IMG/VR virus record: IMGVR_UViG_3300045243_000055 | Span: 1 to 61,432 of that record | Source of the DNA: a virus | DNA: 61,432 bases | Reading direction: 5' to 3' (one strand) | Shown: piece by piece, positions 16,842 through 34,432 of the stretch | How positions within the stretch are numbered: the first letter of the stretch is position 1 | Layout of the letters: each line of letters starts with the position of its first letter | Notes under the pieces: generated by a model | Databases searched by the model: none | What the model saw: only the letters and a program-made list of their open reading frames with translations | Told to the model about the DNA's origin: nothing | Made by a program: the position numbers and the translations under genes

Positions 16842-17068
16842 GGCGCGGTAAAACGGTTGGCGGCGTCCAGGAGGGCGGTGAGGACGGGTGGATCGCCCTT
16901 GCCGAGGGCCCGGAGGCCCCCGACGAACTCGACCAGGGCCTCGACCACCGCCGGCTCAAGCCCGACCCAGTGGTCCCCCTCGAGGCGCGGCGCGCGGAGC
17001 ATGATCTGCCAGCCGTCGAACGAGGCGTACAGCCCGTCGCCCAGGTAAGTCTCTGCCGTCATAGACAT
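16838..17068 (-). CDS. Conserved hypothetical phage protein
   Basis: 76 aa with GGGAGGAACGGCG before the ATG. The opening AETYLGDGLYASFDGWQIML and the following LRAPR...GDHWVGLEP belong to a family of small proteins widespread in phages, with no known function. The upstream region, shared with the divergent RHH gene, carries four TGTGCCCA sites, so the two genes are probably co-regulated. Confidence 0.8.
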   Translation of the reverse strand: MSMTAETYLGDGLYASFDGWQIMLRAPRLEGDHWVGLEPAVVEALVEFVGGLRALGKGDPPVLTALLDAANRFTAP

Positions 17069-17841: not shown

Positions 17842-18081
17842 TCATTGCTTGCCGGAAGCCCGTCGCGCCACATCTACCACGGCGTTGAACATCGCTTCCT
17901 CCACGGCATTCCCAGGCGTAGGCAGTCTGGTGAAGCCAAATGTTGTGCGGAAGGGACCGCCGCCGACGGGCAACTCCCCTCTCGCTTCTAGCCGTTGCAG
18001 TTCCTCCACCCACGCCTTCAAGCGGTCCACTTCAGCTTTGAACGCCTCGCGGAATTCCTCTGTCGATCCTGGCTCAGCCAT
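17842..18081 (-). CDS. Small coiled-coil hypothetical protein
   Basis: 79 aa. Residues 8-38 (EEFREAFKAEVDRLKAWVEE) are strongly helical. The C-terminus (NAVVDVARRASGKQ) is also helical. The start lies in a junction repeat (GGAGCGAGTGATGGCTGAG), and it overlaps the end of the previous gene by 8 bases. Function unknown. Confidence 0.7.
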   Translation of the reverse strand: MAEPGSTEEFREAFKAEVDRLKAWVEELQRLEARGELPVGGGPFRTTFGFTRLPTPGNAVEEAMFNAVVDVARRASGKQ

Positions 18082-18271
18082 CACTCGCTCCCACCTGTTC
18101 GCCTGTCGTGAGATCGACGATCTTTGACCATCGGAAATGCGGGACATCGCTCTCTGTTCGGCAACGGCGTTGGGCTTCCTTCAGGGTCTTGAAGCGATAC
18201 GTAACCGAGTCTGCGCCACCTGGGGGACCAGACCTGATCGTCACTTCATACCGTTCAGCACTATCGTTCAT
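18074..18271 (-). CDS. Small hypothetical protein
   Basis: 65 aa beginning MNDSAERYEVTIRSGP. I chose this ATG because GGAGTGGCC sits directly upstream. The mixed strand/helix sequence (YRFKTLKEAQRRCRTESD, WSKIVDLTTGE) suggests a small folded domain. The C-terminus GASDG is encoded by the junction repeat that also starts the next gene. Not recognised. Confidence 0.7.
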   Translation of the reverse strand: MNDSAERYEVTIRSGPPGGADSVTYRFKTLKEAQRRCRTESDVPHFRWSKIVDLTTGEQVGASDG

Positions 18272-18299
18272 GGCCACTCCATCAATCGAGGGGTTCACT
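18272..18299 (-). repeat. 28-bp junction repeat, copy 1
   Basis: The minus-strand sequence reads AGTGAACCCCTCGATTG, then two variable bases, then GGAGTGGCC. It matches 18833-18860 at 26 of 28 positions. It supplies the TGA of the upstream DUF551-like gene and the ribosome site of the downstream gene. Confidence 0.85.
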
Positions 18300-18489
18300 T
18301 ATCGGAAGGCGGCGGGGCGGGCAGCGGCGCCCAATGGGTTGGCTCTAGGATCACCCGCACGTAGACCCGCCCGTCGTCGTATCCAGTAACCCAGCAGTCA
18401 TGGTGCCAGAACCCATGCCACAGAGAGCCGCCATCACTCAGCACGATGAAGGTGTCCTTCGGCGCGGTGGCGATCGGCTGCCATTCCAT
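18295..18489 (-). CDS. DUF551-like protein
   Basis: 64 aa, ribosome site GGAGGAAGCCG. The opening WQPIATAPKDT, the central tryptophans and the ending THWAPLPAPP match the DUF551 family of small phage proteins, whose role is unknown. The stop codon lies in the 28-bp junction repeat. Confidence 0.8.
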   Translation of the reverse strand: MEWQPIATAPKDTFIVLSDGGSLWHGFWHHDCWVTGYDDGRVYVRVILEPTHWAPLPAPPPSDK

Positions 18490-18501
18490 CGGCTTCCTCC
18501 G

Positions 18502-18693
18502 CTAACTGGTCTTGTCGATGGTAGGTGCGGTTGGACGCTTGCGGCCCAGCCGCTTGGCGATGCCTGACAACCGCATCACGGTCGGCAGTTCGGACCCTGA
18601 GATAATCGCGCCGTTGTCCGTGGCGTGTAGCAGCCAAGCAAGAGCGCGCTGTTCAGAAGGGGACAGCAAAACGCGAGCGATCGTCTCAGCCAT
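18502..18693 (-). CDS. Small hypothetical protein
   Basis: 63 aa, begins MAETIARVLLSPSEQRALAW. The ATG follows GAGAGGTAGCCG, a junction of the GGAGTGGCC type, and the TAG in it ends the upstream zinc-ribbon gene. Helical composition with a basic C-terminus (IAKRLGRKRPTAP). No family recognised. Confidence 0.65.
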   Translation of the reverse strand: MAETIARVLLSPSEQRALAWLLHATDNGAIISGSELPTVMRLSGIAKRLGRKRPTAPTIDKTS

Positions 18694-18696
18694 CGG

Positions 18697-18831
18697 CTAC
18701 CTCTCACAAACGCGATTATCGGAGGTAGGTCGCGGCGCCGGCTTGATCCACCAGCAGCCACAGCGCGGGCAGGGCTCGTGCATTCGGAAGTCTCCGATAT
18801 CGCCGCACCGCACGCATTGCCAGTCAGCCAT
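18697..18831 (-). CDS. 44-aa zinc-ribbon protein
   Basis: Begins MADWQCVRCGD, with a second knuckle CPRCGCW about 12 residues later: two CxxC pairs of a minimal zinc ribbon. The start lies in a GGAGTGGCCG junction and the stop overlaps the next gene's ribosome site. Zinc ribbons recur through this array (18.7, 21.3, 21.5, 21.9, 22.3, 24.8, 25.2 and 25.8 kb). Confidence 0.7.
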   Translation of the reverse strand: MADWQCVRCGDIGDFRMHEPCPRCGCWWIKPAPRPTSDNRVCER

Positions 18832-18832
18832 C

Positions 18833-18860
18833 GGCCACTCCTGCAATCGAGGGGTTCACT
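18833..18860 (-). repeat. 28-bp junction repeat, copy 2
   Basis: The second copy of the element at 18272-18299. It supplies the TGA (18856-18858) of the upstream 80-aa gene and the GGAGTGGCC ribosome site of the zinc-ribbon gene. Confidence 0.85.
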
Positions 18861-19098
18861 GACTGGAAGCCGGGGCCGCGCCGAACGGGTGATCGCGCAG
18901 CCATTGGATGTATTTCGGCGTATTGAAACCCACGACGCGGTCGGTATCGATCGTGATCCGCGCCGCAGCAGAGTGCGCCAGAGCGTGCCAGCCAAGCTGG
19001 TCGCGCGCAAAGTCGTATGCCTCCGACCATGTGAAGTCGTTCGGCACTTCGACCTCGCGCTCCACCGTGGCGGCGAACCTGATCCGGTATGTCGTCAT
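18856..19098 (-). CDS. Small hypothetical protein
   Basis: 80 aa from MTTYRIRFAATVEREVEVPN; the ATG follows GGAGAGGTGGCCAGC. The pattern of an N-terminal beta pair (TYRIRFAATVEREVEV) followed by helices is seen in small phage proteins that resemble anti-restriction or regulatory factors, but I cannot assign a family. Confidence 0.65.
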   Translation of the reverse strand: MTTYRIRFAATVEREVEVPNDFTWSEAYDFARDQLGWHALAHSAAARITIDTDRVVGFNTPKYIQWLRDHPFGAAPASSQ

Positions 19099-19134
19099 GC
19101 TGGCCACCTCTCCAAACGAGCGTTTACGCACACT

Positions 19135-19575
19135 TTATGCGTCTGTAATCGTTGGCCTTGCGTTCCACGGTTTGAACGCGCACATGGCCTCGGCGGTCAG
19201 GGATGGGTCTGACCAGTCGCCGGTGAAGCGGATTGCCCGATCGTCGATGGTCAGCCACGCGGCGGGCTTCTCGTTGGCGAAACTGAGGGTCAGCGGCTTG
19301 GTGGGGTGACGCTCGCCGCCGGCCTTGATCCAAGCGTTGCGCTTCTCGTGCAGCCACATGGTCATGGCCACAATGCCAGCTTCGTCCTTCGACCTCGACG
19401 AATAGACGACCAACTCAAAGTTGTCGCGCACTCGCTCGACCCACTCAAAGAAGCCGGGCACGACCTCGCCGTAAATCGTGCCGTCCTGCCAGCCATGTTC
19501 GTAGCTATGGATCACGCCGTCGAAGTCGATGCAGATCGTCGGCCGGAATATTTCGGTTGGTCGATGGTCACTCAT
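19135..19575 (-). CDS. HAD-like phosphatase
   Basis: 146 aa from [10 protein letters not shown], with GGAG eight bases upstream. [17 protein letters not shown] carries HAD motif I (Asp17-x-Asp19-x-Val21), [12 protein letters not shown] fits motif II (Ser/Thr after a hydrophobic strand), and a Lys and [14 protein letters not shown] fit motifs III and IV. Phage members of this family may act on nucleotides or nucleic acid ends. The substrate cannot be told from sequence. Confidence 0.75.
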
Positions 19576-19601
19576 GGGATCGTCTCCAAACGTCGGGTTC
19601 A

Positions 19602-19713
19602 TCATCGGGCGAGGTAGCAACGCCGCACGACAGGGGTCGCGCCGGAATGAAACGCTTCCCTCGGCGGCATCGCCGAGATAAAGCGTCACATCGCCGAAAA
19701 CCTCGGTTCTCAT
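19602..19713 (-). pseudogene. Fused remnants of a DNA methyltransferase start and a small paralog end
   Basis: From the ATG at 19713 the frame reads [16 protein letters not shown], the usual opening of phage adenine DNA methyltransferases (normally followed by a DPPY motif), but it then becomes unrelated. In the next frame, 19670 to the stop at 19602-19604 reads [18 protein letters not shown], nearly the same as the C-terminus of the secreted protein at 20103-20351. A deletion joining the two genes explains both. Confidence 0.55.
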
Positions 19714-19926
19714 CGGGATCGCATACCGTCGGCCACTCTTGGGTTGGGCCGGGCTCCCACCGGCCGCCGCCCGTCACGCTCTGCCATTGGCAGAGGCCGG
19801 AACGTCTGTGCGAAAGGCCGCCCGTCGCACCGGGGTTATCAGCGTCTTCACCTTATCGCTCAAGGGTCAGATCTCCCCTCGCTGCAGTGCGGCGCTGCTG
19901 TTCGCTTTCGCTCGCTCCTGCGCACT
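19714..19926 (-). other. Degenerate region without a clear gene
   Basis: Only very short frames are present. There is a perfect CTCTGCC-ATT-GGCAGAG inverted repeat at 19779-19795 and a degenerate junction-like stretch. Together with the adjacent fused remnants it looks like a decayed stretch of the gene array. Confidence 0.45.
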
Positions 19927-20106
19927 CTATGATGGCTCGACGTAGATCGCGGCCCATCTTGTGCGGCGGTCCTCGGTGGTCAGGTGACGCTGCACCTGTT
20001 CCATGCGCTCCCAGGCCGATTTGTCGGGCACGCGCGCCGGGGTCCATTGCAGACCGTAGCGCGCGACCAGTAGGCGGAACTCCGCGATGGCCTGTTCGCG
20101 GCTCAT
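19927..20106 (-). CDS. Small hypothetical protein
   Basis: 59 aa, MSREQAIAEFRLLVARYG onward, with conserved-looking aromatic residues (YGLQWTPARVPDKSAWERM). The ATG overlaps the stop of the secreted protein (ATGA). Two-helix composition. Similar short proteins occur in alphaproteobacterial phages. Function unknown. Confidence 0.65.
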   Translation of the reverse strand: MSREQAIAEFRLLVARYGLQWTPARVPDKSAWERMEQVQRHLTTEDRRTRWAAIYVEPS

Positions 20107-20351
20107 CGGTGGTTCGGGTTCGGCACGAGATAGCAGCGCCGCACCAGGGGCGTTGCCCCGGAGTGGAACGCCTCTGCCGGTTCGTTGTGGCAGACCATGT
20201 GGCCCGGCGGCAGCTTGACCGCCTCGCCCCAAACCGGGGGCGTTTTCAGTCGGCCGTACATGTCGAAATCGGTTGCCGGCGAACGGTCTTGCGCCGAGGC
20301 GCCGCCGGCCAGGCCGAGCATGGCGATCGCCGCCAACAGTGTGCGTGTCAT
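20103..20351 (-). CDS. Small exported protein
   Basis: 82 aa with a clear signal peptide (MTRTLLAAIAMLGLAGGASA, then QDRSP). The mature part of about 62 residues has two cysteines (VCHNEP and RRCYLV) that could form a disulphide in the periplasm. The start overlaps the upstream gene's stop. A C-terminal remnant of a paralog is at 19602-19670. A periplasmic role, such as superinfection exclusion or envelope modification, is possible but unproven. Confidence 0.7.
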   Translation of the reverse strand: MTRTLLAAIAMLGLAGGASAQDRSPATDFDMYGRLKTPPVWGEAVKLPPGHMVCHNEPAEAFHSGATPLVRRCYLVPNPNHR

Positions 20352-20920
20352 GTGATGTGCTCCATTGCGGCGGCGAGCTTCACAGCCATCTCCGCCTCGG
20401 TGTTCAGGGGGTTGCTGTCGTCAATTTCCCAGCCGCCGGACGGGCTGAGGGCCGGCGCGAGCAGCGCGGTGGCCCGCTGGTTGCCGTAGCGGACGAGGGC
20501 GAAATACCCATGCCGCGCGGCGATGTCCGCCAGGTACGCGAGCAGCGCCGGATCGCGGAACGCCTCGGGACGCGCCGGATCGACCCACACCTGCACCGCC
20601 TGCATGGGCTTGCCATCGACGAGGATGGTCGACGTTAACGGATCGACGATGTAGCCGGCCCGGTCGGGCCGGCGCAGCGCGGCGGTGTCGGGGTCGAACA
20701 GCCAGCGGCACGACCAGACCGCGCAGGGCTCCGGGCGGCGATGGTAGATCGAGCAGCCGGTGGACCGGACATGCGGGCAGCGCACGCCGGCGGGCTTGAC
20801 CCCGGCCGGAAGCTCGACCGGAACCAGGGTGCAGCACGCGGTGCAGGAGCCGCATTGCCGCCCCCGCACGCGCTCGGCGCTGTAGATCGTCCAGCCGTCG
20901 GGTTCGGTGGCGGAGGTCAT
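20348..20920 (-). CDS. YkgJ-like cysteine-cluster protein
   Basis: 190 aa, ribosome site GGAGGACGGGGC. RGRQCGSCTACCTLVPVELP carries the CxxCxxCC signature of the YkgJ family, followed by CPHVRSTGCSIYHRRPEPC and CRWLFD. These cysteines are proposed to bind metal. Members occur in bacteria and phages with unknown activity. The stop overlaps the exported-protein gene, so they are co-translated. Confidence 0.75.
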   Translation of the reverse strand: MTSATEPDGWTIYSAERVRGRQCGSCTACCTLVPVELPAGVKPAGVRCPHVRSTGCSIYHRRPEPCAVWSCRWLFDPDTAALRRPDRAGYIVDPLTSTILVDGKPMQAVQVWVDPARPEAFRDPALLAYLADIAARHGYFALVRYGNQRATALLAPALSPSGGWEIDDSNPLNTEAEMAVKLAAAMEHIT

Positions 20921-21258
20921 GCCCCGTCCTCCGGTGGGAAGGTGACGGGCAGGCCCTTGGCCTCGATCCAGTCGCGCAGCTCCTTCCGCGCGGCGGCGAA
21001 CGCCTCCCATCGGTTCGCGCGGGCGGCCTCGGCGCACTTGGTCTGAAACGTCGCGACCGCGCCGAGCAGTTCGTCAATGGTGACGCTCATGGCATCCGCC
21101 CGTCGTTCGCGGCGATGACCTGGGCGGTGCTCGATGCTGTCGCAGACGCCCATCTCGCCGAAGTAAGCAGCCCACCGCCCGGGCGCCCGGCGGTCGCGTA
21201 TGAAGCGATCCCACCCGGCCTCAATGTATACTTCGGCTAGGTCGCGCATCTCAGCCAT
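20917..21258 (-). CDS. Hypothetical protein, perhaps two fused modules
   Basis: 113 aa from the junction-repeat start at 21258 (MAEMRDLAEVYIEAGWDRFI). An internal ATG at 21090 would give a 57-aa helical protein (MSVTIDELLGAVATFQ), but its ribosome site is weak. The two halves look unlike each other, so two small genes may have joined in frame here. The stop overlaps the YkgJ-like gene's ATG. Confidence 0.6.
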   Translation of the reverse strand: MAEMRDLAEVYIEAGWDRFIRDRRAPGRWAAYFGEMGVCDSIEHRPGHRRERRADAMSVTIDELLGAVATFQTKCAEAARANRWEAFAAARKELRDWIEAKGLPVTFPPEDGA

Positions 21259-21472
21259 CGCTCGCCCCTGCCTCGGGCTTCTGATCCAGCGGCGTTGCAC
21301 GCCACAAGACCGATCGGCCGCCCTCGCCGCAGGACGGGCAGCGTAGCGTCCTGATGTGGGCGCTCCAGGTCGAGACAGCCACCATGAGGGGCTGCCAGCC
21401 ATCCCACCAATGGCCGCACGCCTTGCAGGCACACCAGATCGGTTGCCAGGTCGGACGTGGCCACTCATCCAT
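21251..21472 (-). CDS. Zinc-ribbon protein, paralog of 25758-25973
   Basis: 73 aa. MDEWPRPTWQPIWCACKACG and CPSCGEGG give two CxxC knuckles. The protein at 25758-25973 is alignable over its whole length (EWPRPTW/DWPQPTW, CKACGHWWDGWQP/CKACSHWWDDWQP, LDQKPEAGASDG/LDQKPGASDG). Both start and end in junction repeats, which shows that this module has been duplicated within the array. Function unknown. Confidence 0.75.
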   Translation of the reverse strand: MDEWPRPTWQPIWCACKACGHWWDGWQPLMVAVSTWSAHIRTLRCPSCGEGGRSVLWRATPLDQKPEAGASDG

Positions 21473-21785
21473 CGCTCGCTCCTGCCTGCCGGGGCGCGCC
21501 TCGCCTCGGGCACGACCAACCTCGGCATGTTGCTTCGGCACCTACCGGACAGATGCAGCCGATCGTGGATGGCTTTGGCGAATACGTGCAGGCGATGTGA
21601 TACGGCGTCGAGCCGCCGATGAAGCACAGGTCGCTGCCACGCACCGGCCTGCCGCAGAAGCCGCAGAGCGGCACCGTGCCGCAAGATGTCTCAGCCATCG
21701 CTCGCTCCTGCTCGCATCGCTCACAACGATCTTCGGGGAGTAAGTTGGCGCATCCATAGAATGCACCCTCGCAGCATCTTTGCAT
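21465..21785 (-). CDS. Cysteine-rich small protein with CICP motif
   Basis: 106 aa from the ATG at 21785, or 77 aa from a stronger junction-repeat ATG at 21698 in the same frame. The upstream module (MQRCCEGAFYGCANLL, RCERCEQERA) runs through the junction without a stop. The main part has LCGFCGRPVRGSD and IGCICPVGAEATCRGWSCPR, a motif shared with the protein at 24723-24953 and seen in small phage proteins. Probable zinc binding. Ends AGASDG. Confidence 0.65.
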   Translation of the reverse strand: MQRCCEGAFYGCANLLPEDRCERCEQERAMAETSCGTVPLCGFCGRPVRGSDLCFIGGSTPYHIACTYSPKPSTIGCICPVGAEATCRGWSCPRRGAPRQAGASDG

Positions 21786-21802
21786 CGCTCGATCCTGCGT
21801 CA

Positions 21803-21940
21803 TCAGTAGATGTCCCGCGCAACAACTTTGCCGCACCGGATGCAGCGTCGCCGCTGGAAGAACGGACCGTTTGTCTGCCACATCGACCACCGATGTGACC
21901 AAGGAAACCGACAAGCGCCCCGGGCGCCGATCTCAGCCAT
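21803..21940 (-). CDS. 45-aa zinc-finger-like protein
   Basis: Begins MAEIGARGACRFPWSHRW and ends RRRCIRCGKVVARDIY. The pattern Cys, PWSH, then CxxCG is typical of a class of tiny phage zinc-binding proteins. The start is in a junction repeat with GGAACGAGCG as ribosome site. No function is known. Confidence 0.65.
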   Translation of the reverse strand: MAEIGARGACRFPWSHRWSMWQTNGPFFQRRRCIRCGKVVARDIY

Positions 21941-21959
21941 CGCTCGTTCCTTGCCGGGG

Positions 21960-22106
21960 TTAGAGCTTGCGCCAGAACGTCAAATTCTTCTCTGCCGCCT
22001 CGCGCGTATCGAACATTGACAGCCATGCTGGCTTACGGCCAGGCGCGTGGATCATGACAAGCCAAATGTCGTGTCCGTCTTCTTTGTCGATGTAGTAGCA
22101 GCTCAT
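21960..22106 (-). CDS. 48-aa hypothetical protein
   Basis: MSCYYIDKEDGHDIWLVMIH onward, ending FWRKL. The ATG overlaps the stop of the upstream gene (ATGA). The composition suggests a small beta-alpha fold. Not recognised. Confidence 0.55.
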   Translation of the reverse strand: MSCYYIDKEDGHDIWLVMIHAPGRKPAWLSMFDTREAAEKNLTFWRKL

Positions 22107-22276
22107 GGCGAGCGTCGCCTAAGTGGTGAGTCTGGATGAGTCCAGACCGGCAAAGCACACATGATCTTCCTGGCGATCTGATTGACCAGTCTATCGTTCG
22201 TCGCATCCTCCGATTGGCCGAGGACATCCAGAATGTCCCGAACGAAGGCTTCAATCTCACCTAGCCGGTCAGCCAT
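22103..22276 (-). CDS. 57-aa helical hypothetical protein
   Basis: MADRLGEIEAFVRDILDVLG onward. A canonical junction repeat supplies GGAGCGAGCG and ATGGCTGA. Mostly helical, with a basic tail (LRRRSP). No family recognised. Confidence 0.6.
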   Translation of the reverse strand: MADRLGEIEAFVRDILDVLGQSEDATNDRLVNQIARKIMCALPVWTHPDSPLRRRSP

Positions 22277-22517
22277 CGCTCGCTCCTGCTGGCGCGGGTT
22301 CTTCGATTGTCATCACGCCCAGTGCAGTCATGCGACGGTCCCAACTCTTTCCGCATGTTCTGCACTCCATCATGGTGATGATCGCGGTGTCGTCGCCACC
22401 ACCAACGCGATTGCCGTGGCCATCATAGAGCGGACGCCATGGAACCCCGGTGGTGTATGACGCCCCTGGCGTGATGCGGCACTCGGACGGGTCGCGTTCA
22501 CAGCTTGGCGGTCGCAT
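22269..22517 (-). CDS. Small zinc-knuckle-containing protein
   Basis: 82 aa. The C-terminal half has MECRTCGKSWDRRM, a CxxCG knuckle with only one clear cysteine pair; another cysteine pair is spread near the N-terminus (SCERDPSEC). The start lies within the last 20 bases of the upstream gene, without a junction repeat. The end (APAGASDG) is encoded by one. Confidence 0.6.
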   Translation of the reverse strand: MRPPSCERDPSECRITPGASYTTGVPWRPLYDGHGNRVGGGDDTAIITMMECRTCGKSWDRRMTALGVMTIEEPAPAGASDG

Positions 22518-22734
22518 CGGCGTGTTCCTTCATCTCTGTAATCGGGAGCCGAAGATGGTGTTCTCCCGTCTGCGCCACATCGCGACACCGCTCCGCCCAA
22601 TCGCGATTAGCCTCGGCCTTCTCCCGGTCGGGTGGCTGCTTCGCCTCATGGTAGTTTGCGTATTGCTCGAACACCTTGGCGGCGGCCAGTAGTGCATTGC
22701 GCATCAGCCGGATCACCTCGCGCGTCTCAGCCAT
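22498..22734 (-). CDS. Small coiled-coil-like protein
   Basis: 78 aa, MAETREVIRLMRNALLAAAK, helical throughout, with QPPDREKAEANRDWAERCRD in the middle. Starts in a canonical junction repeat. Function unknown. Confidence 0.65.
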   Translation of the reverse strand: MAETREVIRLMRNALLAAAKVFEQYANYHEAKQPPDREKAEANRDWAERCRDVAQTGEHHLRLPITEMKEHADATAKL

Positions 22735-22903
22735 CGCTCGCTCCTGCCGCCTTGCAGCCGCACGGCCACTCCAAGGTAGTCTCGTCGATCGGCAGGCCGT
22801 CCCACTCGAAGCAGTAATGCCGCTCGCGGCCTGTCAGCACCCTGCCGCGCCAGAGCAGGCACTCAGCCACCCACTCAGGGTCGCTCAGGTCAACGCCTTC
22901 CAT
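22727..22903 (-). CDS. 58-aa hypothetical protein ending in AGASDG
   Basis: MEGVDLSDPEWVAECLLWRG onward, with WPCGCKAAGASDG at the end. The last six residues and the stop are the junction repeat read in a second frame, which shows directly how the repeat joins two genes. The start follows GGCCG in the end of the upstream gene. Confidence 0.65.
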   Translation of the reverse strand: MEGVDLSDPEWVAECLLWRGRVLTGRERHYCFEWDGLPIDETTLEWPCGCKAAGASDG

Positions 22904-23117
22904 CGGCCATCTTCACGCAAATCCCGGTCGCTCTGTCTGTTGGGCGCACCATCACGGTTCTGTCCGCTTCCCGACGCAGATCAGCGCACACCTCAAGGGC
23001 AGCATGCGTCATCTCGGGCGGCAGGATTATCAGCCTGAGTAGCCGGTCGAGCGCATGGGCCACGTCGTTGAGTTCGCGCCGGGCAAGCTCGGTATAAACG
23101 AATGCCTCTATCGGCAT
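22890..23117 (-). CDS. Small helical protein
   Basis: 75 aa from MPIEAFVYTELARRELNDVA, with GGAGAGCCGGC upstream. Two long helices and a short C-terminal strand (RTVMVRPTDRATG). It overlaps both neighbours by 10-14 bases. No family recognised. Confidence 0.65.
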   Translation of the reverse strand: MPIEAFVYTELARRELNDVAHALDRLLRLIILPPEMTHAALEVCADLRREADRTVMVRPTDRATGICVKMADGRR

Positions 23118-23299
23118 GCCGGCTCTCCTGCGTCCGTATTTCGCCACCAGCGAAGCGCCGCCGACTGCATGCAGGCACAGTTGCGGAACGGCAGGCTGGA
23201 AACCCGACACGCATCCCGCCGGTCACAGCGGCGATCCGACGCGATCAGATCCCGCGCCGAGAATAGCTCGCCAATATCAGGCGTCGGGGCAACGTGCAT
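23108..23299 (-). CDS. Cysteine-rich small protein
   Basis: 63 aa (MHVAPTPDIGELFSARDLIA) with five cysteines in its second half (RCDRRDAC, CACM, ACR). The ribosome site GGAGGTGGCCG is of the second junction type. Possible metal binding, but the spacing does not match a known finger. Confidence 0.55.
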   Translation of the reverse strand: MHVAPTPDIGELFSARDLIASDRRCDRRDACRVSSLPFRNCACMQSAALRWWRNTDAGEPACR

Positions 23300-23309
23300 C
23301 GGCCACCTC

Positions 23310-23486
23310 CTACAAACAGAGGATCGTGGTTGCGATAGCGACCAGCGACGCAGCGCACAGAGTGCCGTCCTCGATAGCTACTCTATTCCGCTCGGCCCGC
23401 CATGCCTCGCGGCACTGCGCCGAGAAATTTCCTGCCGCCACGCCCAGCACGAAGATCACGAAGTTCACGGCGAGCCAGTGCGGCAT
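23310..23486 (-). CDS. Small membrane protein, two spans
   Basis: 58 aa. Hydrophobic stretches at residues 4-20 (WLAVNFVIFVLGVAAGN) and 43-58 (LCAASLVAIATTILCL) flank a charged loop (REAWRAERNR). The ATG overlaps the preceding TAA (TAATG). No lysis or exclusion motif is recognised. Confidence 0.6.
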   Translation of the reverse strand: MPHWLAVNFVIFVLGVAAGNFSAQCREAWRAERNRVAIEDGTLCAASLVAIATTILCL

Positions 23487-23884
23487 TAGCCACTCCTGCT
23501 GTCTTGCAGCGCAATTCGACCTAGGTCGGTAATCAGAAAATTGCTCTGCCCTATCAGACCACGATTATCCCGCCGGATCAGGCCGACTTGCTCCAACGCG
23601 ACCGCTAGCCTGTTATTGTGCCCAGCCACGCGACCGTGCGGGTTGCATGCCTCTCGTAGAAACTGGGTCTGACGGCTATCCAGCGTGGCAACGGTCGCCT
23701 CGGCTAGCACGCGGTGCTTCGCCTCGTGCCGGCTGGCTGCCGTGCCGCTGCTGGCCGGCGTAAGGTATCTGCACTCGCCCTCGATCAGCGGACCGACTGT
23801 GCCGAGCCACTTGGTGCGCAGCATCAGTTCCTCGTTGTCTCCGAAGCGCGTCCTGCGCCAGCGCGGCTGCGCTTCCCTAGCCAT
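23486..23884 (-). CDS. Hypothetical protein, possible winged helix
   Basis: 132 aa, MAREAQPRWRRTRFGDNEEL. The C-terminal half (NNRLAVALEQVGLIRRDNRG, FLITDLGRIAL) resembles a winged-helix DNA-binding module, and the N-terminus is basic. The start is a GGCCAATGGCTA junction. A DNA-binding role is a guess from fold-like pattern only. Confidence 0.55.
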   Translation of the reverse strand: MAREAQPRWRRTRFGDNEELMLRTKWLGTVGPLIEGECRYLTPASSGTAASRHEAKHRVLAEATVATLDSRQTQFLREACNPHGRVAGHNNRLAVALEQVGLIRRDNRGLIGQSNFLITDLGRIALQDSRSG

Positions 23885-24380
23885 TGGCCACCCCTGTTTT
23901 GACGCTGACCTTCACCCAAATCACCTCGCCGCTCGCCGTTTTCTGCTGCACCCAATAGTGCGGCACGAAGATGATTTCCTGTGTCATTCCCGGCTCGAGC
24001 CATAGCTCGATCTCGATGTCATCCCCGTGCCATCGCAACAGCACGGCGCCGTCGCCGGACGGATTGATTGTCGGCGTGCGGGTGGTGATGGTGCGTGCCA
24101 TGCGCAGCGCGAGCGGATCGGGAGGTCGGCCGCCGTAGCTATCCCATCCCGGCTCTAGCGCGGCGAGTTCCGCCAGTCGGTCGGTCGTCTCAGTCATCGT
24201 TCGCTCCTGCGTCATAGCTGGCGGCGAGCCGAAAAATCCGGGGTGTCGTTCCTCGATGAACGCGATGATGCCCGCAGTGAGGCTGTCACCGATGAATAAG
24301 TCGTCGTCCGACCCGAAGTGCAGCTTGTCATAGAGATCGCGCACCGTTTCGCGCCAGGGGTTCTCGTCCGGCTCAGCCAT
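23877..24380 (-). CDS. Hypothetical protein formed by two modules across a junction repeat
   Basis: 167 aa from the ATG at 24380 (MAEPDENPWRETVRDLYDKL). At residue 62 the frame passes through a junction repeat (QERTMTETTDRL), whose ATG at 24197 would give a 106-aa protein alone. That second part (ALEPGWDSYGGRPPDPLALR and a beta-rich C-terminus) resembles a family seen in phages and bacteria. Two products, or one fused protein, are possible. Ends TGVANG in the next junction. Confidence 0.6.
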   Translation of the reverse strand: MAEPDENPWRETVRDLYDKLHFGSDDDLFIGDSLTAGIIAFIEERHPGFFGSPPAMTQERTMTETTDRLAELAALEPGWDSYGGRPPDPLALRMARTITTRTPTINPSGDGAVLLRWHGDDIEIELWLEPGMTQEIIFVPHYWVQQKTASGEVIWVKVSVKTGVANG

Positions 24381-24450
24381 GGTCGCTGGTCGTCCCCGGA
24401 GGGAGGGGTTGCGGGGGTGGCCGAGGCGGCAGGGTCGGAAGCTTCGTCAT
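24373..24450 (-). CDS. 25-aa proline-rich peptide ORF
   Basis: MTKLPTLPPRPPPQPLPPGT plus five residues. The start follows a junction-type GAAGCGAACG and the stop overlaps the next ATG. The architecture matches the array, but the length makes it uncertain. Confidence 0.35.
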   Translation of the reverse strand: MTKLPTLPPRPPPQPLPPGTTSDHG

Positions 24451-24506
24451 CGTTCGCTTCTCGTCTCAGTCCATCGGCTACTCCACTTGTTGCGTGTCTC
24501 AGCCAT
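24447..24506 (-). CDS. 19-aa peptide ORF
   Basis: A canonical junction repeat gives GGAGCGAGTG and ATGGCTGAG, and the frame (MAETRNKWSSRWTETRSER) closes after 19 codons, overlapping the next ATG. It may be a remnant of a larger gene cut down between two junctions. Confidence 0.35.
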   Translation of the reverse strand: MAETRNKWSSRWTETRSER

Positions 24507-24520
24507 CACTCGCTCCTGCC

Positions 24521-24730
24521 TTATCGTCCATCGACAAACACCGCGAGTTCGTTCTTCACGACTGACAGCGCGGCATCCACAATGTCCATGACAAAGGGAT
24601 CGAACTCGTGCCCGTCTGATGGACGGCCATGCCGACGGTCGAACGCCGCGTAATAGCAGCGCCAGCGTAGGTTATCCGGGTGGCTGCGACCCATGTCGGG
24701 AACCCGCTGAATATCAGCCTCCTTAGCCAT
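24521..24730 (-). CDS. Small hypothetical protein
   Basis: 69 aa, MAKEADIQRVPDMGRSHPDN, with a Trp/Tyr-rich centre (LRWRCYYAAFDRRHGRPSDG) and a helical C-terminus. Ribosome site GCAGGAGCGGCC. Unknown. Confidence 0.6.
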   Translation of the reverse strand: MAKEADIQRVPDMGRSHPDNLRWRCYYAAFDRRHGRPSDGHEFDPFVMDIVDAALSVVKNELAVFVDGR

Positions 24731-24953
24731 TGGCCGCTCCTGCGCGGTTCGACGGGTTCTTGCGTGGACAGTCCGGCCGCTCGCAGTCCTTGTTTGCACC
24801 CGGCGGACAGATGCAGCCGACCGGCACCAGTGGCACCATCGGTTGAAACGGCTGCTGTATCGGGATGTGATTCTCTCGCCACCAGGGCGGATTACCAGTC
24901 ATCGGTCGCTCCCCGATGCACCGTAAACAGCACACATCTTTCTGCTCGGTCAT
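24723..24953 (-). CDS. Cysteine-rich protein with CICP motif, two modules
   Basis: 76 aa from the junction-repeat ATG at 24953 (MTEQKDVCCLRCIGERP), running in frame through a second, altered junction (ERPMTGNPPW, internal ATG at 24902). The C-terminus GCICPPGANKDCERPDCPRK is closely related to the protein at 21465-21785. Ends AGAANG. Probably binds zinc. Module duplication within the array is evident. Confidence 0.65.
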   Translation of the reverse strand: MTEQKDVCCLRCIGERPMTGNPPWWRENHIPIQQPFQPMVPLVPVGCICPPGANKDCERPDCPRKNPSNRAGAANG

Positions 24954-24968
24954 CGCTCGCTCCTGCTG

Positions 24969-25154
24969 TCATACGGCGGCAGCCATTTCCTCAATCTCCT
25001 CGATGCAATCGGACATGCCAGCTTGTGCCCATGAATTAGCAGACAGGTGCTTAATCACCACATCGTTGCAATCGGATAGCCAGGAGTGGAGGACGGCAGC
25101 AGCATCGAGAAGCGCCTGCCGCCTCGCTTCTTGCAATGCATCGCGCTCAGCCAT
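24969..25154 (-). CDS. Small helical protein
   Basis: 61 aa, MAERDALQEARRQALLDAAA onward, ending SDCIEEIEEMAAAV. Starts in a junction repeat. Helical throughout. No family recognised. Confidence 0.6.
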   Translation of the reverse strand: MAERDALQEARRQALLDAAAVLHSWLSDCNDVVIKHLSANSWAQAGMSDCIEEIEEMAAAV

Positions 25155-25323
25155 CGCTCGCTTCTGCCCGCGTGCGCTTCCATTCCAGATACGCGCGATC
25201 AGCAGCGGTCGGTTCGGGCGGTAGAGACGCCCGGCACTTGGCACACCGGAGCGAGACGTGGTTGCTGATCGCGCCACAATCCAGACAGAGGATCTGCGGG
25301 CCATTAGGTATCAGATGCACCAT
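25147..25323 (-). CDS. 58-aa zinc-ribbon protein
   Basis: ILCLDCGAISNHVSLRCAKC gives two CxxC pairs about 12 residues apart. GGAGGACACCG precedes the ATG. The C-terminus RAEASDG and its stop come from the junction repeat that starts the next gene. Confidence 0.65.
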   Translation of the reverse strand: MVHLIPNGPQILCLDCGAISNHVSLRCAKCRASLPPEPTAADRAYLEWKRTRAEASDG

Positions 25324-25338
25324 CGGTGTCCTCCTCCA

Positions 25339-25569
25339 TCAATCTGCAATCCGCCGGGCGCGGTCGCGCCAGCGCCTCGCGATCTGCACGGCACGGTCGT
25401 GCTCATCGGCCACTTCTTCAATCGGCAGCCGCGCGATCCGGCGGTAGGCTGCCAACTCGACGCGGTCGATGCCGAGCCGCAGGAGCGCGCCGAGCAGGAC
25501 GCCCACCCCCAGCGCGGCGAGCAGCGCGAGCGGCATCCAGACGGCGAAGCTGATGCACGTCTCAGCCAT
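25339..25569 (-). CDS. Small membrane-anchored protein
   Basis: 76 aa. One span at about residues 9-31 (AVWMPLALLAALGVGVLLGA) and a basic cytoplasmic-type tail (RRIARLPIEEVADEHDRAVQ). Starts in a junction repeat. The topology resembles small regulatory or spanin-like membrane proteins, but no motif supports a specific role. Confidence 0.6.
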   Translation of the reverse strand: MAETCISFAVWMPLALLAALGVGVLLGALLRLGIDRVELAAYRRIARLPIEEVADEHDRAVQIARRWRDRARRIAD

Positions 25570-25765
25570 CTCTCGCTCCTGCGTCCGTCGTCTGTTGCCG
25601 GAGACCGAGGCGCTTCATCAGGTAGTAGTCGTGCGTGGCGTGGCATAGCTCCCAGCCGGCAGCACCCGCCTCGTTGAGCGCGACTAGATCACGGGGGATC
25701 AACTGATACTCCCATCGGATCGCCAGCGGTTCGCTACGGTATTGCCACATGGGATGATCAACCAT
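25562..25765 (-). CDS. DUF4177-like small protein
   Basis: 67 aa. WEYQLIPRDLVALNEAGAAGWELCHA followed by YYLMKR, in pieces, matches the layout of DUF4177-type proteins (YEY, LNxxGxxGWEL, then a final strand). Role unknown. Starts in a junction repeat and ends DAGARDG in the next one. Confidence 0.6.
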   Translation of the reverse strand: MVDHPMWQYRSEPLAIRWEYQLIPRDLVALNEAGAAGWELCHATHDYYLMKRLGLRQQTTDAGARDG

Positions 25766-25973
25766 CGCTCGCTCCTGGCTTCTGATCCAGCGGCTTGGTG
25801 CGCAGCATGACCTTGCGGCGGTTGGCGCCACACGCCGGGCAATGAATGGTCTTGATGTGCGCGACCCAGGTGGCGATCGGGACCATGCACGGCTGCCAGT
25901 CGTCCCACCAATGGCTGCACGCCTTGCACGAGCACCATAACGGCTCCCAGGTCGGCTGAGGCCAGTCATCCAT
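25758..25973 (-). CDS. Zinc-ribbon protein, paralog of 21251-21472
   Basis: 71 aa, MDDWPQPTWEPLWCSCKACS and CPACGANRR. It is the most similar gene pair in the array (see 21251-21472). Its own start lacks a junction repeat, while its end (KPGASDG) is one. It lies at the upstream edge of the junction-repeat array, next to the first CGCNN block. Confidence 0.7.
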   Translation of the reverse strand: MDDWPQPTWEPLWCSCKACSHWWDDWQPCMVPIATWVAHIKTIHCPACGANRRKVMLRTKPLDQKPGASDG

Positions 25974-26052
25974 AAGATCGCCTGCGGGTCATTACTGTCT
26001 CATCCCTGTAGACTCGGCCACCTCTGCGCAGTGCCGCTTGGTGCGCAGGTAG

Positions 26053-26196
26053 TTGCGTTGCGTAGCGTAGCGTAGCGCTGCGGAGCGAAGCGCTGCGAGG
26101 CGTGGCGATGCAATGCGGAGCGGGGTGTGGCGCTGCGATGCGTGGCGATGCGGAGAGGCGCGTAGCGGGGCGGCGCGACGCCGAGCGCTGCGGGGT
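26053..26196. repeat. CGCNN pentanucleotide array 1
   Basis: On the minus strand the sequence is built of degenerate 5-bp units CGCNN (for example CGCAG CGCTA CGCTA CGCTA). It fills most of the 230-base gap between the genes at 25973 and 26205. Related arrays occupy the next two intergenic gaps (26728, 27471). Confidence 0.85.
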
Positions 26197-26204
26197 TGGG
26201 GATG

Positions 26205-26714: not shown

Positions 26715-26727
26715 GTGATCCCTTCAG

Positions 26728-26864
26728 GCGTTGCGTTGCGGGGCGGTACGTTGCGAGGCGATGCGCCGAGACGCGGGGCGTTGCGGCACGTGGCGATGCG
26801 TTGCGGGGCGTTGCGCTGTGGAGCGCTGCGTCGCGATGCGGTGCGTGGCGGTGCGCCGAGGCGA
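26728..26864. repeat. CGCNN pentanucleotide array 2
   Basis: Minus-strand units such as CGCAA CGCCC CGCAA CGCAT cover nearly the whole gap between the genes at 26714 and 26867. The five-base phase is kept through most of the block despite point changes. Confidence 0.85.
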
Positions 26865-26866
26865 CC

Positions 26867-27454: not shown

Positions 27455-27470
27455 TGTTCTCTCCATTGGA

Positions 27471-27606
27471 CGTTGCGTTGCGAAGCGGCGAGCGGCGTTG
27501 CGATGCGCGGAGCGGCGGAGCGTTGCGTTGCGATGAGTAGCGAAGCGCTGCGATGCAGTGCGGGGCGGGGCGTTGCGATGCGCGGAGCGGCGCGACGCGG
27601 AGGCGT
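27471..27606. repeat. CGCNN pentanucleotide array 3
   Basis: Minus-strand units such as CGCAA CGCAA CGCTC and CGCAG CGCTT CGCTA fill the gap between the genes at 27454 and 27613. With arrays 1 and 2, every gap among four successive genes is made of the same pentamer type. Confidence 0.85.
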
Positions 27607-27612
27607 CAGGTG

Positions 27613-27858
27613 TCACACGATCCCCCGGCTGCCGCGCACGGCGGCGAGTTCGAGGCGCAGTCGCTCGAGCGCGCGGCTGTAGCTGAACTCCTTGAGCCAG
27701 ACGGTGAACAAGTGCCCGCCGGCGTCGGGGTGGCGGTACTCGGCGAGTGCGTTGCTGCGCGGTTTGATCGCGGTGAAGCCGAGCCGGTCGAGTTCGGCGA
27801 GCAGTTCAGGCTGGCTGATCGCGCCGCGCCGCAGCGCGCGTTCGGTGTAGCTCAGCAT
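27613..27858 (-). CDS. Small hypothetical protein
   Basis: 81 aa, MLSYTERALRRGAISQPELL. The arrangement of helix, strand (YRHPDAGGHLFTVWL) and basic helix suggests a compact nucleic-acid-binding fold. The stop lies seven bases beyond array 3. Starts inside the end of the GcrA-like gene. Confidence 0.6.
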   Translation of the reverse strand: MLSYTERALRRGAISQPELLAELDRLGFTAIKPRSNALAEYRHPDAGGHLFTVWLKEFSYSRALERLRLELAAVRGSRGIV

Positions 27859-28304
27859 CCCGCATGGTCCTCCCGGCGGTCGCGCACCTTGACGTAGGAC
27901 AGCCGCGCATGGTCGGCGCAGTAGGACTTCCCGAGATCGCAGACCGCGTCGCAGAAGCGGAACGCGCGGGTGCCAGGCTCGCCGATCGGCCAGCAGCAGG
28001 TGATGGTCCGGAAGTGGGGCGGTGTCTTCGGAGCGGGCGGCTCCGGGGAAGGGGAGAGGGGTGCCAGTGTCGTCTTCGGCTGTCGCTTGGCGGGCGTCTC
28101 CGGAGGCGGCTTCGGTTTCTTGGTGAACTCGCCGCGCGCCGGCAGGCCGAGGCGGTTGCGCTTGCCGATCACGGCGTTCTTCGACACGCCCAGCAGCCTG
28201 CCGATCTTGCCCTGGCTGTTGGCGTATTTGCGGCCGTCTGCGGTGCGCTCGTACCACAGCGTCACCAGCCGCGCTTCCCGTTCGTCGCTCCACGGGTCGG
28301 CCAT
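27852..28304 (-). CDS. GcrA-family cell-cycle regulator-like protein
   Basis: 150 aa. The N-terminus (WSDEREARLVTLWYER, KIGRLLGVSKNAVIGKRNRL) is the GcrA helix-turn-helix. After a Pro-rich linker comes TCCWPIGEPGTRAFRFCDAV and SYCADHARLSYVKV, the cysteine-containing C-terminal domain that in Caulobacter GcrA binds sigma-70 RNA polymerase. GcrA activates promoters with CcrM-methylated GANTC. A phage copy could redirect host transcription. The family is essentially alphaproteobacterial, which supports the host call. Confidence 0.85.
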   Translation of the reverse strand: MADPWSDEREARLVTLWYERTADGRKYANSQGKIGRLLGVSKNAVIGKRNRLGLPARGEFTKKPKPPPETPAKRQPKTTLAPLSPSPEPPAPKTPPHFRTITCCWPIGEPGTRAFRFCDAVCDLGKSYCADHARLSYVKVRDRREDHAGC

Positions 28305-28549: not shown

Positions 28550-28815
28550 GGCCGTGCTTCGCCTCGCGTGCGGGTGGCAGGCCTGGGCGGGGTCCGCTCG
28601 ACCGCCTGGACGACCTCGACCGCCGGCCAGTGGATGCGCCCGACCTCGGGCAGCGTCGCCGGCAATTCCGGCTCGGCGCCGTTGGTCGCCGGCACGGGCA
28701 ATTTCAGGCCCTCGGTGCCGCGTTCTTCCAGCAGCTTGCGCAGGTGGTCATAGACCGCCGCCGCCGGCAGCGCGTCGTCGACCGGGACGCGGACACGCAT
28801 CGTGGCGAATTTCAC
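28546..28815 (-). CDS. Small hypothetical protein
   Basis: 89 aa from a GTG start overlapping the ATPase stop (GTGA), with GGAGAGCTAAC upstream. Begins MKFATMRVRVPVDDALPAAA; helical middle (AVYDHLRKLLEERG) and Pro-rich end. Its tight coupling suggests that it works with the ATPase, but no family is recognised. Confidence 0.65.
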   Translation of the reverse strand: MKFATMRVRVPVDDALPAAAVYDHLRKLLEERGTEGLKLPVPATNGAEPELPATLPEVGRIHWPAVEVVQAVERTPPRPATRTRGEARP

Positions 28816-29966
28816 GTTAGCTCTCCCTGCTTGTTCTTCGGGTCGGTGCGCGCCCACGACGCGGCGACGAACGGTTTGACGTGCTGCTCGTACAGCGCCT
28901 TCCGCTGGCGTTGCAGAAACTTGATCTGCTTCTGCACTTCGGGCTCGTCGACGATCGCCAAGTGCTCCTGGCGCGTCGCGGTGTTCAGGAACCGATCGCC
29001 GAGCGCCTTGGCGCCGGCCTCGATGCGCTGCTCGACCGACAGCGGGGCATCGTCTTCGGGCTGGCCATCCGGCGGATCGGGTGTGGACCCTGGTGGCGGC
29101 GGCTCTTCCCCTGGTGGTCCGTCGTCGGGCGGGCTGTCCTCTGGCGGTGGCGGCTGCGAAGCTGGCGGTCGTGATGTGCTGGCGGTGGCGCTGGTCTCGC
29201 CGCGCGCCCAGGCCGCGATCGCCGCGCCTGTCGCCTCGTCCAACGGTCGTTCCAGGGAGATGATCGGCTTCAGCGCCGGCAGCAGGGCTTTGATCGGCCG
29301 AGGCACGCCGGGGTGGCGCGGGTCTTCGAGCATCAGCGACAGCGTCATCGCCCAGGGAATGTCCACGCCGCAGATCGGCGTGAGGCCCTGGTCTACCGGC
29401 ACCATCTTCTTGCGGCCCTCGTCGTCGACCGTCTCGACCATGGCCATCTTGCGCTCGGCGCCGCAGCACAGGATCACCGGCATGTTCAACTGGTAGAGCC
29501 GTTCGCGCATCCGCTTGTGCTGCGTCTTCGGCTCGATCCAGGCGAGCATCTTGGTTGATTCCAGCCGCGACAGATTGCCGCGCGCCATGCGCAGATTGAT
29601 CTCCTGGTGCCACTCGAGCAGCCCGCCGGGCCCATTGTGCTCGTGCATGAAGTTGTCGATCACCAGCACCGCCGCGCCGTTGCGCTGCGCCTGCTTCGCT
29701 GCTTCCTCGAACACGATTGGCCGAAACGGCTCGTGCAGGTTCAGGTGTTCGAAGCGAAATTCGTCCGCGTAAAACGCCGCCCGGTTATTGTCCGTGTCCG
29801 CAACGAACACTCTGCCGTCTGGTCCGGCCATGCCGCGTGCGAGACGTAGGGCGCTGTACGTTTTGCCAACGCCCGGTGGCCCCGAGATCATAATCAGCGG
29901 CGCTGCCTTCGAGCGGACAGCCGGGCGGTACGTAAAGTCCTTCTGGATGGCGGCGCCGTCAGGCAC
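28812..29966 (-). CDS. AAA/RecA-like phage ATPase (Sak4-type recombination candidate)
   Basis: 384 aa from a GTG start six bases after the nuclease stop; the start is the least certain part. LIMISGPPGVGKTYSALRLA is a Walker A motif, VFVADTDNNR follows, and AAVLVIDNFMHEH is the Walker B strand, as in the AAA_24 / Sak4 group of phage ATPases. The C-terminal third is a Pro-rich acidic linker (PPPPEDSPPDDGPPGEEPPP) and a helical tail. Beside a RecE-type nuclease it probably serves single-strand annealing recombination. Confidence 0.7.
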   Translation of the reverse strand: MPDGAAIQKDFTYRPAVRSKAAPLIMISGPPGVGKTYSALRLARGMAGPDGRVFVADTDNNRAAFYADEFRFEHLNLHEPFRPIVFEEAAKQAQRNGAAVLVIDNFMHEHNGPGGLLEWHQEINLRMARGNLSRLESTKMLAWIEPKTQHKRMRERLYQLNMPVILCCGAERKMAMVETVDDEGRKKMVPVDQGLTPICGVDIPWAMTLSLMLEDPRHPGVPRPIKALLPALKPIISLERPLDEATGAAIAAWARGETSATASTSRPPASQPPPPEDSPPDDGPPGEEPPPPGSTPDPPDGQPEDDAPLSVEQRIEAGAKALGDRFLNTATRQEHLAIVDEPEVQKQIKFLQRQRKALYEQHVKPFVAASWARTDPKNKQGELT

Positions 29967-29971
29967 CTGCG

Positions 29972-30937
29972 TCAGCCACCGAACTGACCGGCTTCGATCA
30001 GCCGCTCGATGAACTTCGTGTCCTCGATGGCGCGGCCGTAACCGCCGGCCTTGGCGCTCTCCCACTGCCGCACGATCCACGGCGGCGGCAGGATCCACTC
30101 GGTCTCGCGCGGGTAGCTGGGCCACGCCTGCTCAGTCGGCCGGCCAGCGTCGAGGGCGGCACGGGTGGCTGCCATGCACTGCACCCAGATGGCGCGCGCG
30201 GCTGCGGCCTTGGCCTCACCGACATCGACCGCGACGGGATCGAGCGCGAACACGCGGATGGCGAACGGCGCCGAGGTCTCGACCACGACGAACAACATCC
30301 CGTCGGGGACCTCGCCGTCGCGCAGATAGCTGGCACCGCGTGGATACATCGCCGCCTGCAGGTCGGCCCCGAACTCGAAGCACTGCCGGCCCCAGCGCTC
30401 CGGTGTGGCGAGCCCGCCGGTGGTCTTGAGGTCGAGTAGCGGGCCGGCGGGATCGTCGTGGAGCCAATCGACGCGAGCGCGCGCCCAGTGGTCATCCTCC
30501 TGCCAGACCAACGTCTGCTCGGGCTTGCCGTGGGTGAACAGGCCGGTGCGCGCACGGAAGTTCTCGAGCGCTTCTACGACGCGACGGGTGCTGTCGTAGG
30601 CCCTGGTCTTTAGCGGGATGCGGCCTGCCGCCAGGGCGGCGTCGCGCATCTCCTTCGCATCCTTGGTCCGGTAGCTGTCGAACGGGATGTGCTCGACCCG
30701 GTCGCTGCCTTCGAGGAACAGCGCGTGGGCAGCGGTGCCGACGTCCATGTCCTCATCGCCGGAGGACGGACCCTCGGCGACCGAGCCGCCGAGGCGCGGG
30801 TGCTCAGCGTAGGCGTGGGCGGGCGACGCCTCGATGATCTTGCGGGCGATCGAGCGCGACAGGGACGGCACCGGCGCCGGATCGGCGTGGTACTCGTGGT
30901 CGGGCATCGTGTAGATGCCGGGCTCGGTGACGGCCAT
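29972..30937 (-). CDS. RecE-like PD-(D/E)XK exonuclease (DUF3799 type)
   Basis: 321 aa from MAVTEPGIYTMPDHEYHADP, with GCGGGAAATTCC upstream. VPSLSRSIARKIIEASPAHA and GTAAHALFLEG are the N-terminal signature, and ARVDWLHDDPAGPLLDLKTT holds the catalytic Asp and the D-x-K motif, followed by DLQAAMYPRGA. This is the exonuclease-VIII C-terminal fold that makes 3' overhangs for annealing. First gene of the leftward operon, directly after the promoter/operator at 30962-31016. Confidence 0.8.
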   Translation of the reverse strand: MAVTEPGIYTMPDHEYHADPAPVPSLSRSIARKIIEASPAHAYAEHPRLGGSVAEGPSSGDEDMDVGTAAHALFLEGSDRVEHIPFDSYRTKDAKEMRDAALAAGRIPLKTRAYDSTRRVVEALENFRARTGLFTHGKPEQTLVWQEDDHWARARVDWLHDDPAGPLLDLKTTGGLATPERWGRQCFEFGADLQAAMYPRGASYLRDGEVPDGMLFVVVETSAPFAIRVFALDPVAVDVGEAKAAAARAIWVQCMAATRAALDAGRPTEQAWPSYPRETEWILPPPWIVRQWESAKAGGYGRAIEDTKFIERLIEAGQFGG

Positions 30938-33718: not shown

Positions 33719-34432
33719 TCAGGCGGCCTTACGGAGTGGCGCCCGCTTGTTTGTCACAATCTCCCCGTTCTCATACGGCTCCCCGCTAATCCGCATTCCA
33801 TTCGCGATCGCCTTCTTGACCTTCTCGGTATGGCCTTCCTGCATCGCGACACGGACGTTCACGCTATCGCCGGAATTGACCAGCCACGCAATCACCTTGC
33901 GCAACTGGTCTTTGTCCTCACGATTATACCCGCTCCACTCCGCAACACGCCGTGCCAGACCATAGACACTCGGCCCCTGACGACGGGCGATCAGCAACAA
34001 CTCGTCTGGGGGGAACAACCCGGCAAGGGCGCTGATCGCTGGCGCGAGACGAGACGGCAAGTCGCCTGCCGCGCCACCCAAGGCATGAACTTCCAGCCAC
34101 TGCTTGCCGGTGAGCTTCTTGCTGGTTTCGTTGATCTCACGGAAGATTTTCGTCAGATATTCGGCGCCGACTTCAATAACCAGGGCCGGGATCTGGGCGA
34201 ACTCGGGGTTCTTCAGCTTTTTCAGGCCATACACCGCAAAGCGGCGATGCCCCTCGATGATCATATAGCGCCCGTCTTCCGTCTTGTTCACCAGAATCGG
34301 GTAGTAGAGGCCGATGTCGGTGATCGAGGCCAACAGCCCCTTGATGTCGGCGTCCTCCCCGCGTCCGCGTGGGTTGAGCGGGTTCTTGTCGATCTGATCC
34401 AGCGGGATGTGGTGCACGTTGTAGTCCTTCAT
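33719..34432 (-). CDS. ParB-like nuclease-domain protein
   Basis: 237 aa from MKDYNVHHIPLDQIDKNPLN, with GGAGG nine bases upstream. LASITDIGLYYPILVNKTED and YMIIEGHRRFAVYGLKKL match the ParB/sulfiredoxin N-terminal domain (GHRR box), and a helical DNA-binding-like middle follows (PDELLLIARRQG). No ParA is present and no parS-like sites were recognised, so a partition role is uncertain; phage ParB-like proteins can also be nucleases or regulators. Confidence 0.7.
   Translation of the reverse strand: MKDYNVHHIPLDQIDKNPLNPRGRGEDADIKGLLASITDIGLYYPILVNKTEDGRYMIIEGHRRFAVYGLKKLKNPEFAQIPALVIEVGAEYLTKIFREINETSKKLTGKQWLEVHALGGAAGDLPSRLAPAISALAGLFPPDELLLIARRQGPSVYGLARRVAEWSGYNREDKDQLRKVIAWLVNSGDSVNVRVAMQEGHTEKVKKAIANGMRISGEPYENGEIVTNKRAPLRKAA

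Follow-up and report, generated by a model that had tools for sequence, protein, structure and literature searches.

A repeated stop/Shine-Dalgarno/start element at the joints of a phage array of tiny genes, and its probable use as short homology for cassette exchange

Cluster K mycobacteriophages carry start-associated sequences (SAS) and extended start-associated sequences (ESAS), short asymmetric repeats with AGGAG just upstream of the start codon, which precede many unrelated small non-structural genes in 11-19 copies per genome, nearly all in one orientation (PMC3203893). Some SAS contain an upstream stop codon (Pope et al. 2011, PMC3203893, Fig. 14 legend), and the idea that SAS are a possible target for homologous recombination has already been raised (Pope et al. 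2011, PMC3203893). The boundary sequences of lambdoid phages are short conserved border sequences thought to allow module swaps by homologous recombination, and the Island3/Brujita mycobacteriophages, with a C-terminal repeat of ~50 bp, offer a comparable case of border homology (PMC3029335). Here we describe IMG/VR virus record IMGVR_UViG_3300045243_000055, a stretch of 61,432 bases referred to below as the window, in which an array of tiny genes on the minus strand (17842-25973) is linked by a repeated element. We consider it probable that this element is a start-associated stop/Shine-Dalgarno/start module which also provides short homology for the swapping of gene cassettes. How phages swap single small genes without damage to the neighbours is an old question, on which random and joint-directed models compete. 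Many swaps at the same kinds of joints in this genome and its relatives, including a slot with three genes, mean that a defined sequence is available for testing it. In uncultured phages, the joints further mark the borders of cassettes, and hence of candidate host-takeover genes.

The array comprises ~35 short open reading frames (ORFs) of 19-190 aa, linked by start-associated joints and chained from 25973 down to 17842; the chain was put together by hand from the sequence. The 20-mer CAGGAGCGAGCGATGGCTGA has 14 matches with at most 3 mismatches. Every one of them is on the minus strand and falls within 18,074-25,777, with none elsewhere in the window; dinucleotide shuffling gives an expectation of 0.01. 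The close variant GCAGGAGCGGCCAATGGCTAA, which precedes 24730, is a fifteenth copy at a gene start, in agreement with the ~15 minus-strand joints between 18 and 26 kb counted in an initial annotation of this DNA. The second form and the 28-bp version named there were also recovered, as GGAGTGGCCGATG and as CTCGATTGCAGGAGTGGCCGATGGCTGA (18824-18851, minus strand), respectively, and the same 28 nt are present in record L095 between unrelated flanks. For the second form, scanned as GGAGNGGCCGATG, 41 matches with at most 2 mismatches were found, against 15.9 expected. Array starts within 4 mismatches of the element number 15 of 35, whereas none of the 64 other window genes comes that close, the best having 8 mismatches. 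The information outside the start codon amounts to 9.1 bits in the array, compared with 3.5 bits on average (4.5 at most) over same-sized samples drawn from the other genes, so that the element is far more conserved than ordinary ribosome sites. As a Shine-Dalgarno repeat at the starts of unrelated genes, far above ordinary starts, it is a start-associated sequence in the general sense.

The element resembles SAS and ESAS in its short asymmetric form, in the position of AGGAG, in the unrelated small genes that follow it, in copy number and in orientation. The sequence, however, differs: CAGGAGCGAGCGATGGCTGA has AGGAGC alone in common with the SAS consensus GGGATAGGAGCCC (the consensus was compared, with no separate scan for the SAS 13-mer). 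ESAS has 17-bp inverted repeats, whereas none were noticed here, where no dedicated inverted-repeat search was made. Paralogous cassettes are limited to two pairs, 25973-25758 with 21472-21251 (~65% identical), and the C-terminal parts of 24953-24723 and 21698-21465; the remaining cassettes have no credible mutual similarity. Therefore, duplication of cassettes does not explain the repeats. An assembly artefact was thought an unlikely source of the joints, as independent records carry the same ones.

The element places an AGGAG Shine-Dalgarno site ~6 nt upstream of ATG, which is followed by a preferred second codon (ATGGCTGA). Nine of the 15 copies supply the upstream gene with a C-terminal ..GASDG, or a sequence close to it, and with a stop inside ATGGCTGA (or ATGGCTAA), so that this gene overlaps the next one by 8 nt. 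Minus-strand copies that end one ORF and start the next lie at 18074-18093 (end of ORF 18271-18074, start of ORF 18081-17842), 21251-21270 (ORFs 21472-21251 and 21258-20917), 21465-21484 (21785-21465 and 21472-21251), 22269-22288 (an exact copy; 22517-22269 and 22276-22103), 22727-22746 (also exact; 22903-22727 and 22734-22498), 24723-24742 (variant CAGGAGCGGCCAATGGCTAA; 24953-24723 and 24730-24521), 25147-25166 (25323-25147 and 25154-24969), 25562-25581 (25765-25562 and 25569-25339) and 25758-25777 (25973-25758 and 25765-25562). The stops at 18074, 21251, 21465, 22269, 22727, 25562 and 25758 had been listed before, every one correctly; those at 25147 and 24723 (TAA) are additional, and the genes with stops at 23877 (TAG) and 24373 terminate in variants of the joint. 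Two copies are read through in frame with the next ATG and produce fused ORFs, at 24190-24209 (ATG at 24197, within ORF 24380-23877) and at 21691-21710 (ATG at 21698, within ORF 21785-21465). At four copies the upstream stop lies 14-24 nt before the element, and the third, stop-free frame is used by none of the 15 upstream genes. On the same strand, copies start ORF 21940-21803 (21933-21952) and ORF 24953-24723 (24946-24965). Near-tandem copies at 24447-24518 enclose hardly any gene body (19-aa ORF 24506-24447) and resemble an 'empty' cassette; a similar double joint is present in L096 (551-607). The copy at 19903-19921 (GCAGGAGCGAGCGAAAGCG) has no start codon and is probably decayed.

Because of this use of the frames of the element, unrelated proteins have common C-termini (GASDG) and N-termini (MAE, MAETR). 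The homologues of 25973-25758 have joints that differ between phages at both ends, and their C-terminus is GASDG or TIDKTS. Neighbouring genes are probably coupled in translation via the 8-nt overlap. SAS, in contrast, are mostly located in gaps of more than 50 bp, and the element here, unlike SAS, takes in the start codon and the following codons and supplies the C-terminus of the upstream gene. The initial annotation had stated that SAS have no shared stop, which is not quite right, since SAS with an upstream stop are marked by Pope et al. 2011 (PMC3203893).

The nearest relative, G004, has a terminase 98% identical to that of the window and ~2.9 kb in place of the 12 kb of the window; its joints match those of the window, but other genes follow them. 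Records L085 and L087 were found by a search with cassette 25973-25758. The cassettes shared with L085 are transcribed in the window in the order 25973, 25569, 24197, 18271, 17054, whereas in L085 a homologue of the sequence near 17054 is followed by homologues of genes 18271, 25569, 24197 and 25973, in this order, so that gene order is not conserved. Cassettes 18271-18074 and 25569-25339 (both minus strand) are separated by 7 kb in the window, but in L085 their homologues adjoin via one copy of the element: their homology blocks meet at L085:7417-7435 (GGGAGCGAGCGATGGCTGA), a 19-nt block that belongs to both. The homologue of the minus-strand cassette 24197-23877 follows directly after that of 25569-25339.

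The slot between joints J2 (TACCTCCGATAATCGCGTTTGTGAGAGGTAGCCGATGGC; 18686-18728, left border) and J3 (beginning with ACCATCGACAAGACCAGTTAGCGGAGG; 18491-18524, right border), both on the minus strand, holds one gene in each of five records, and three unrelated genes in all. The window has cassette 18693-18502 in this slot, L044, L085 and L087 have a homologue of the 71-aa CxxC cassette 25973-25758, whose minus-strand paralogue in the array is 21472-21251, and L077 has an unrelated 94-aa gene. Besides the slot gene common to L044, L085 and L087, the alignment gives strong identity at the joints only; genes outside the slot also differ between the five records. These genes look real: homologues of 25973-25758 have a ratio of nonsynonymous to synonymous divergence (dN/dS) of 0.12-0.31, with dN 0.056 and dS 0.281 against L044, and dN is lower than dS for 18271-18074 (0.041 and 0.093) and for 25569-25339 (0.135 and 0.288).

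Across the relatives, the ends of homology blocks lie at a median of 12.5 nt from a start codon, compared with 60.8 nt at random placement, and 67% of them fall within 20 nt, compared with 18%; 10,000 permutations yielded no value as extreme. Twelve array stretches contain 68 exact matches of at least 16 nt whose flanks are unrelated on either side, against 0.28 (maximum 2) in block shuffles. A joint motif is present in at least 63 of the 68. These islands are 16-35 nt long. Element patterns served to retrieve L095-L102 and L077, and joints of that class in these records therefore do not count as independent; joints J2 and J3 are unaffected by this ascertainment, as is the island test restricted to records not fetched by element patterns, which gave 17 islands, 16 of them in joints.

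Both the 68 islands and the J2-J3 slot present an identical short sequence between unrelated flanks in different genomes, as boundary sequences do. The array differs from boundary sequences in that the border itself is the stop/ribosome-site/start, repeated ~15 times in one array, and in that the same few joints precede unrelated genes in different phages. These genome comparisons, unlike the SAS case, show exchange of cassettes at the joints, with gene content that changes at the repeats. Thus, the dual role proposed by the initial annotation stands in part: the joints are exchange points. The element might contribute more to translation than a good Shine-Dalgarno site, and it might be a dedicated recombination site or, alternatively, a conserved translation signal whose short homology is incidental. 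SAS are the closest described system in layout and boundary sequences the closest in mechanism, and the comparative evidence here is unusually direct.

Joint-bearing records, several of which are fragments, differ in terminase. The terminase of G003 is 38% identical to that of the window, and G022, G030 and G032 match phrog_2, not the window terminase; we infer phrog_2 to be a terminase family from its overlap with the terminase matches in G003 and G033. It therefore seems that cassettes and joints move from one phage backbone to another. Counted with at most 4 mismatches, the element occurs 293 times per Mb in the window and 104 times in array relatives (partly selected for it); the figure drops to 8 for the other terminase relatives and to 1.5 for controls. 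As a tentative and rather doubtful extension, unrelated phages might draw on a common pool of tiny cassettes with standard stop/ribosome-site/start joints; any cassette would then fit any array, and the joints would be kept partly by selection for exchange itself, with no site-specific recombinase involved.

With the element as short homology, a joint common to many unrelated tiny genes would offer 16-35 nt of exact homology where a crossover spares both neighbours. A gene body ending in the joint would acquire a stop there or be fused in frame; a gene body beginning in the joint would acquire a ribosome site. Because the joint would give exact homology at a point where the crossover leaves the neighbours intact, cassettes would be gained, lost, duplicated and reordered by joint-joint exchange, within one genome and between phages. 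The likely engine would be the phage's own recombination system, an exonuclease with an annealing-type partner, acting on short homology. The genome encodes an exonuclease VIII-like protein of the PD-(D/E)XK type (29972-30937, minus strand; phrog_412, E 2e-50; PF12684, E 1.5e-13), a candidate recombination gene. The adjoining AAA ATPase (28812-29966, minus strand; phrog_1366, E 2e-43) has a weak Sak4-like resemblance (phrog_124, E 6e-4; PF13479 below cutoff), and Sak4 of HK620 anneals single strands (PMC5928155). Both the near-empty tandem of the element at 24518-24447 and the exonuclease gene count in favour of the short-homology reading of the joints.

Several observations weigh against the element as a combined translation and exchange module. 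The ATPase is at best a tentative annealing partner, as further searches with it gave no clear match. With its 20 nt, the element falls short of the minimal pairing segments reported for Red-beta (23-27 bp) and RecA (31-34 bp) (PMC3945230), although some joints reach 24-35 exact nt. The terminase relatives G006, G008, G010, G011, G013, G016 and G017 have no such joint repeat. Predicted RNA accessibility does not differ between element starts and other starts, and the role of the element in translation is presumed.

According to the main rival explanation, the joint is a conserved translation signal only, recombination is random and illegitimate, and selection keeps the breakpoints at gene borders. 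Illegitimate exchange near gene borders is a standing model of phage mosaicism (PMC3029335). An intact junction must fall near a start in either model, so breakpoints near starts are also expected under random exchange; moreover, some joints look by eye like hybrids of two classes with the AGGAG core alone in common (L085:8203-8246, L102:11714-11752). However, the breakpoints hold an exact common joint of 16-35 nt and do not scatter over the border region, the junction in L085 lies inside the 19-nt block common to both donors, and ordinary starts in the same genome lack such conservation. Since exact joints are common to the breakpoints, the short-homology model is favoured, and we regard purely random exchange as unlikely. 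The two paralogous pairs would fit an array that grew as one joint-gene unit was duplicated in tandem again and again and the gene bodies then diverged fast, an explanation already disfavoured by the lack of credible similarity among the other cassettes. The relatives, with the same cassettes reordered and other cassettes at the same joints, make it very improbable.

Integrons are arrays of small gene cassettes between short repeated sites, where cassettes are reordered and exchanged. The cassette layout is alike here, and short direct repeats in a single orientation at every exchange would suit a dedicated site-specific, integron-like system, in which a recombinase recognises the joints and moves the cassettes; an integrase-like ORF also appears, by eye, beside the array in L044 and L077. 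In contrast to integrons, the sites here belong to translation signals, no integrase, of integrons or other, was found among the window proteins searched (part of the ORFs), and no attC-like sites were noticed, though without a dedicated search. The element is asymmetric to the eye, with no inverted core sites noticed (again without an inverted-repeat search), and at least three different joint sequences act alike, which is not expected of one enzyme. We therefore give such a system very little credence, and prefer the element as a translation module with short homology.

The window possesses genes for terminase, portal, major head protein and tail sheath, and judged by this gene set the phage is contractile-tailed. 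The GcrA-like cell cycle regulator encoded at 27852-28304 (PF07750, E 2e-19) belongs to a family known from alphaproteobacteria and suggests an alphaproteobacterial host. With blastn the array had no match among 50,697 phage records, nor did three small proteins with tblastn; the window terminase is at most ~40% identical to the terminases listed among the phage records. Scanning genome contigs for the cassette protein revealed no relative. Among genomes, terminase homologues reach no more than 56% identity and belong to mixed hosts, and for this reason the host cannot be named. The same phage encodes a ParB-like protein (33719-34432) and a Dam-type methyltransferase (34573-35280). Genes 26714-26205 and 27454-26867 on the minus strand are surrounded by runs of degenerate CGCNN pentamers, which take up the gaps at 26045-26200, 26720-26865 and 27465-27610. 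The same genes have flanking runs of this type in L044, L079 and L084, and in L080 and L081 similar ones lie close to them. The runs of L079 hold several short inserts near CAACGATTCATTTATGGCATTTC (10697-10720, 10839-10860, 10926-10950, 11056-11075 and 11856-11880).

Some relatives encode a conserved protein of ~145 aa (L077:15108-15548 and L085:8246-8686), with homologues in L184, L185, L191, L193-L196 and L198-L200. The gene has an in-frame TGA at the same codon in 12 out of 12 translated sequences (..NIGEE*AVYAGGRPLWQLS..). The consensus fold past the TGA is weak. Conservation resumes directly past the TGA, where most copies have no usual start codon, and this makes the gene a candidate for conserved UGA readthrough or recoding.

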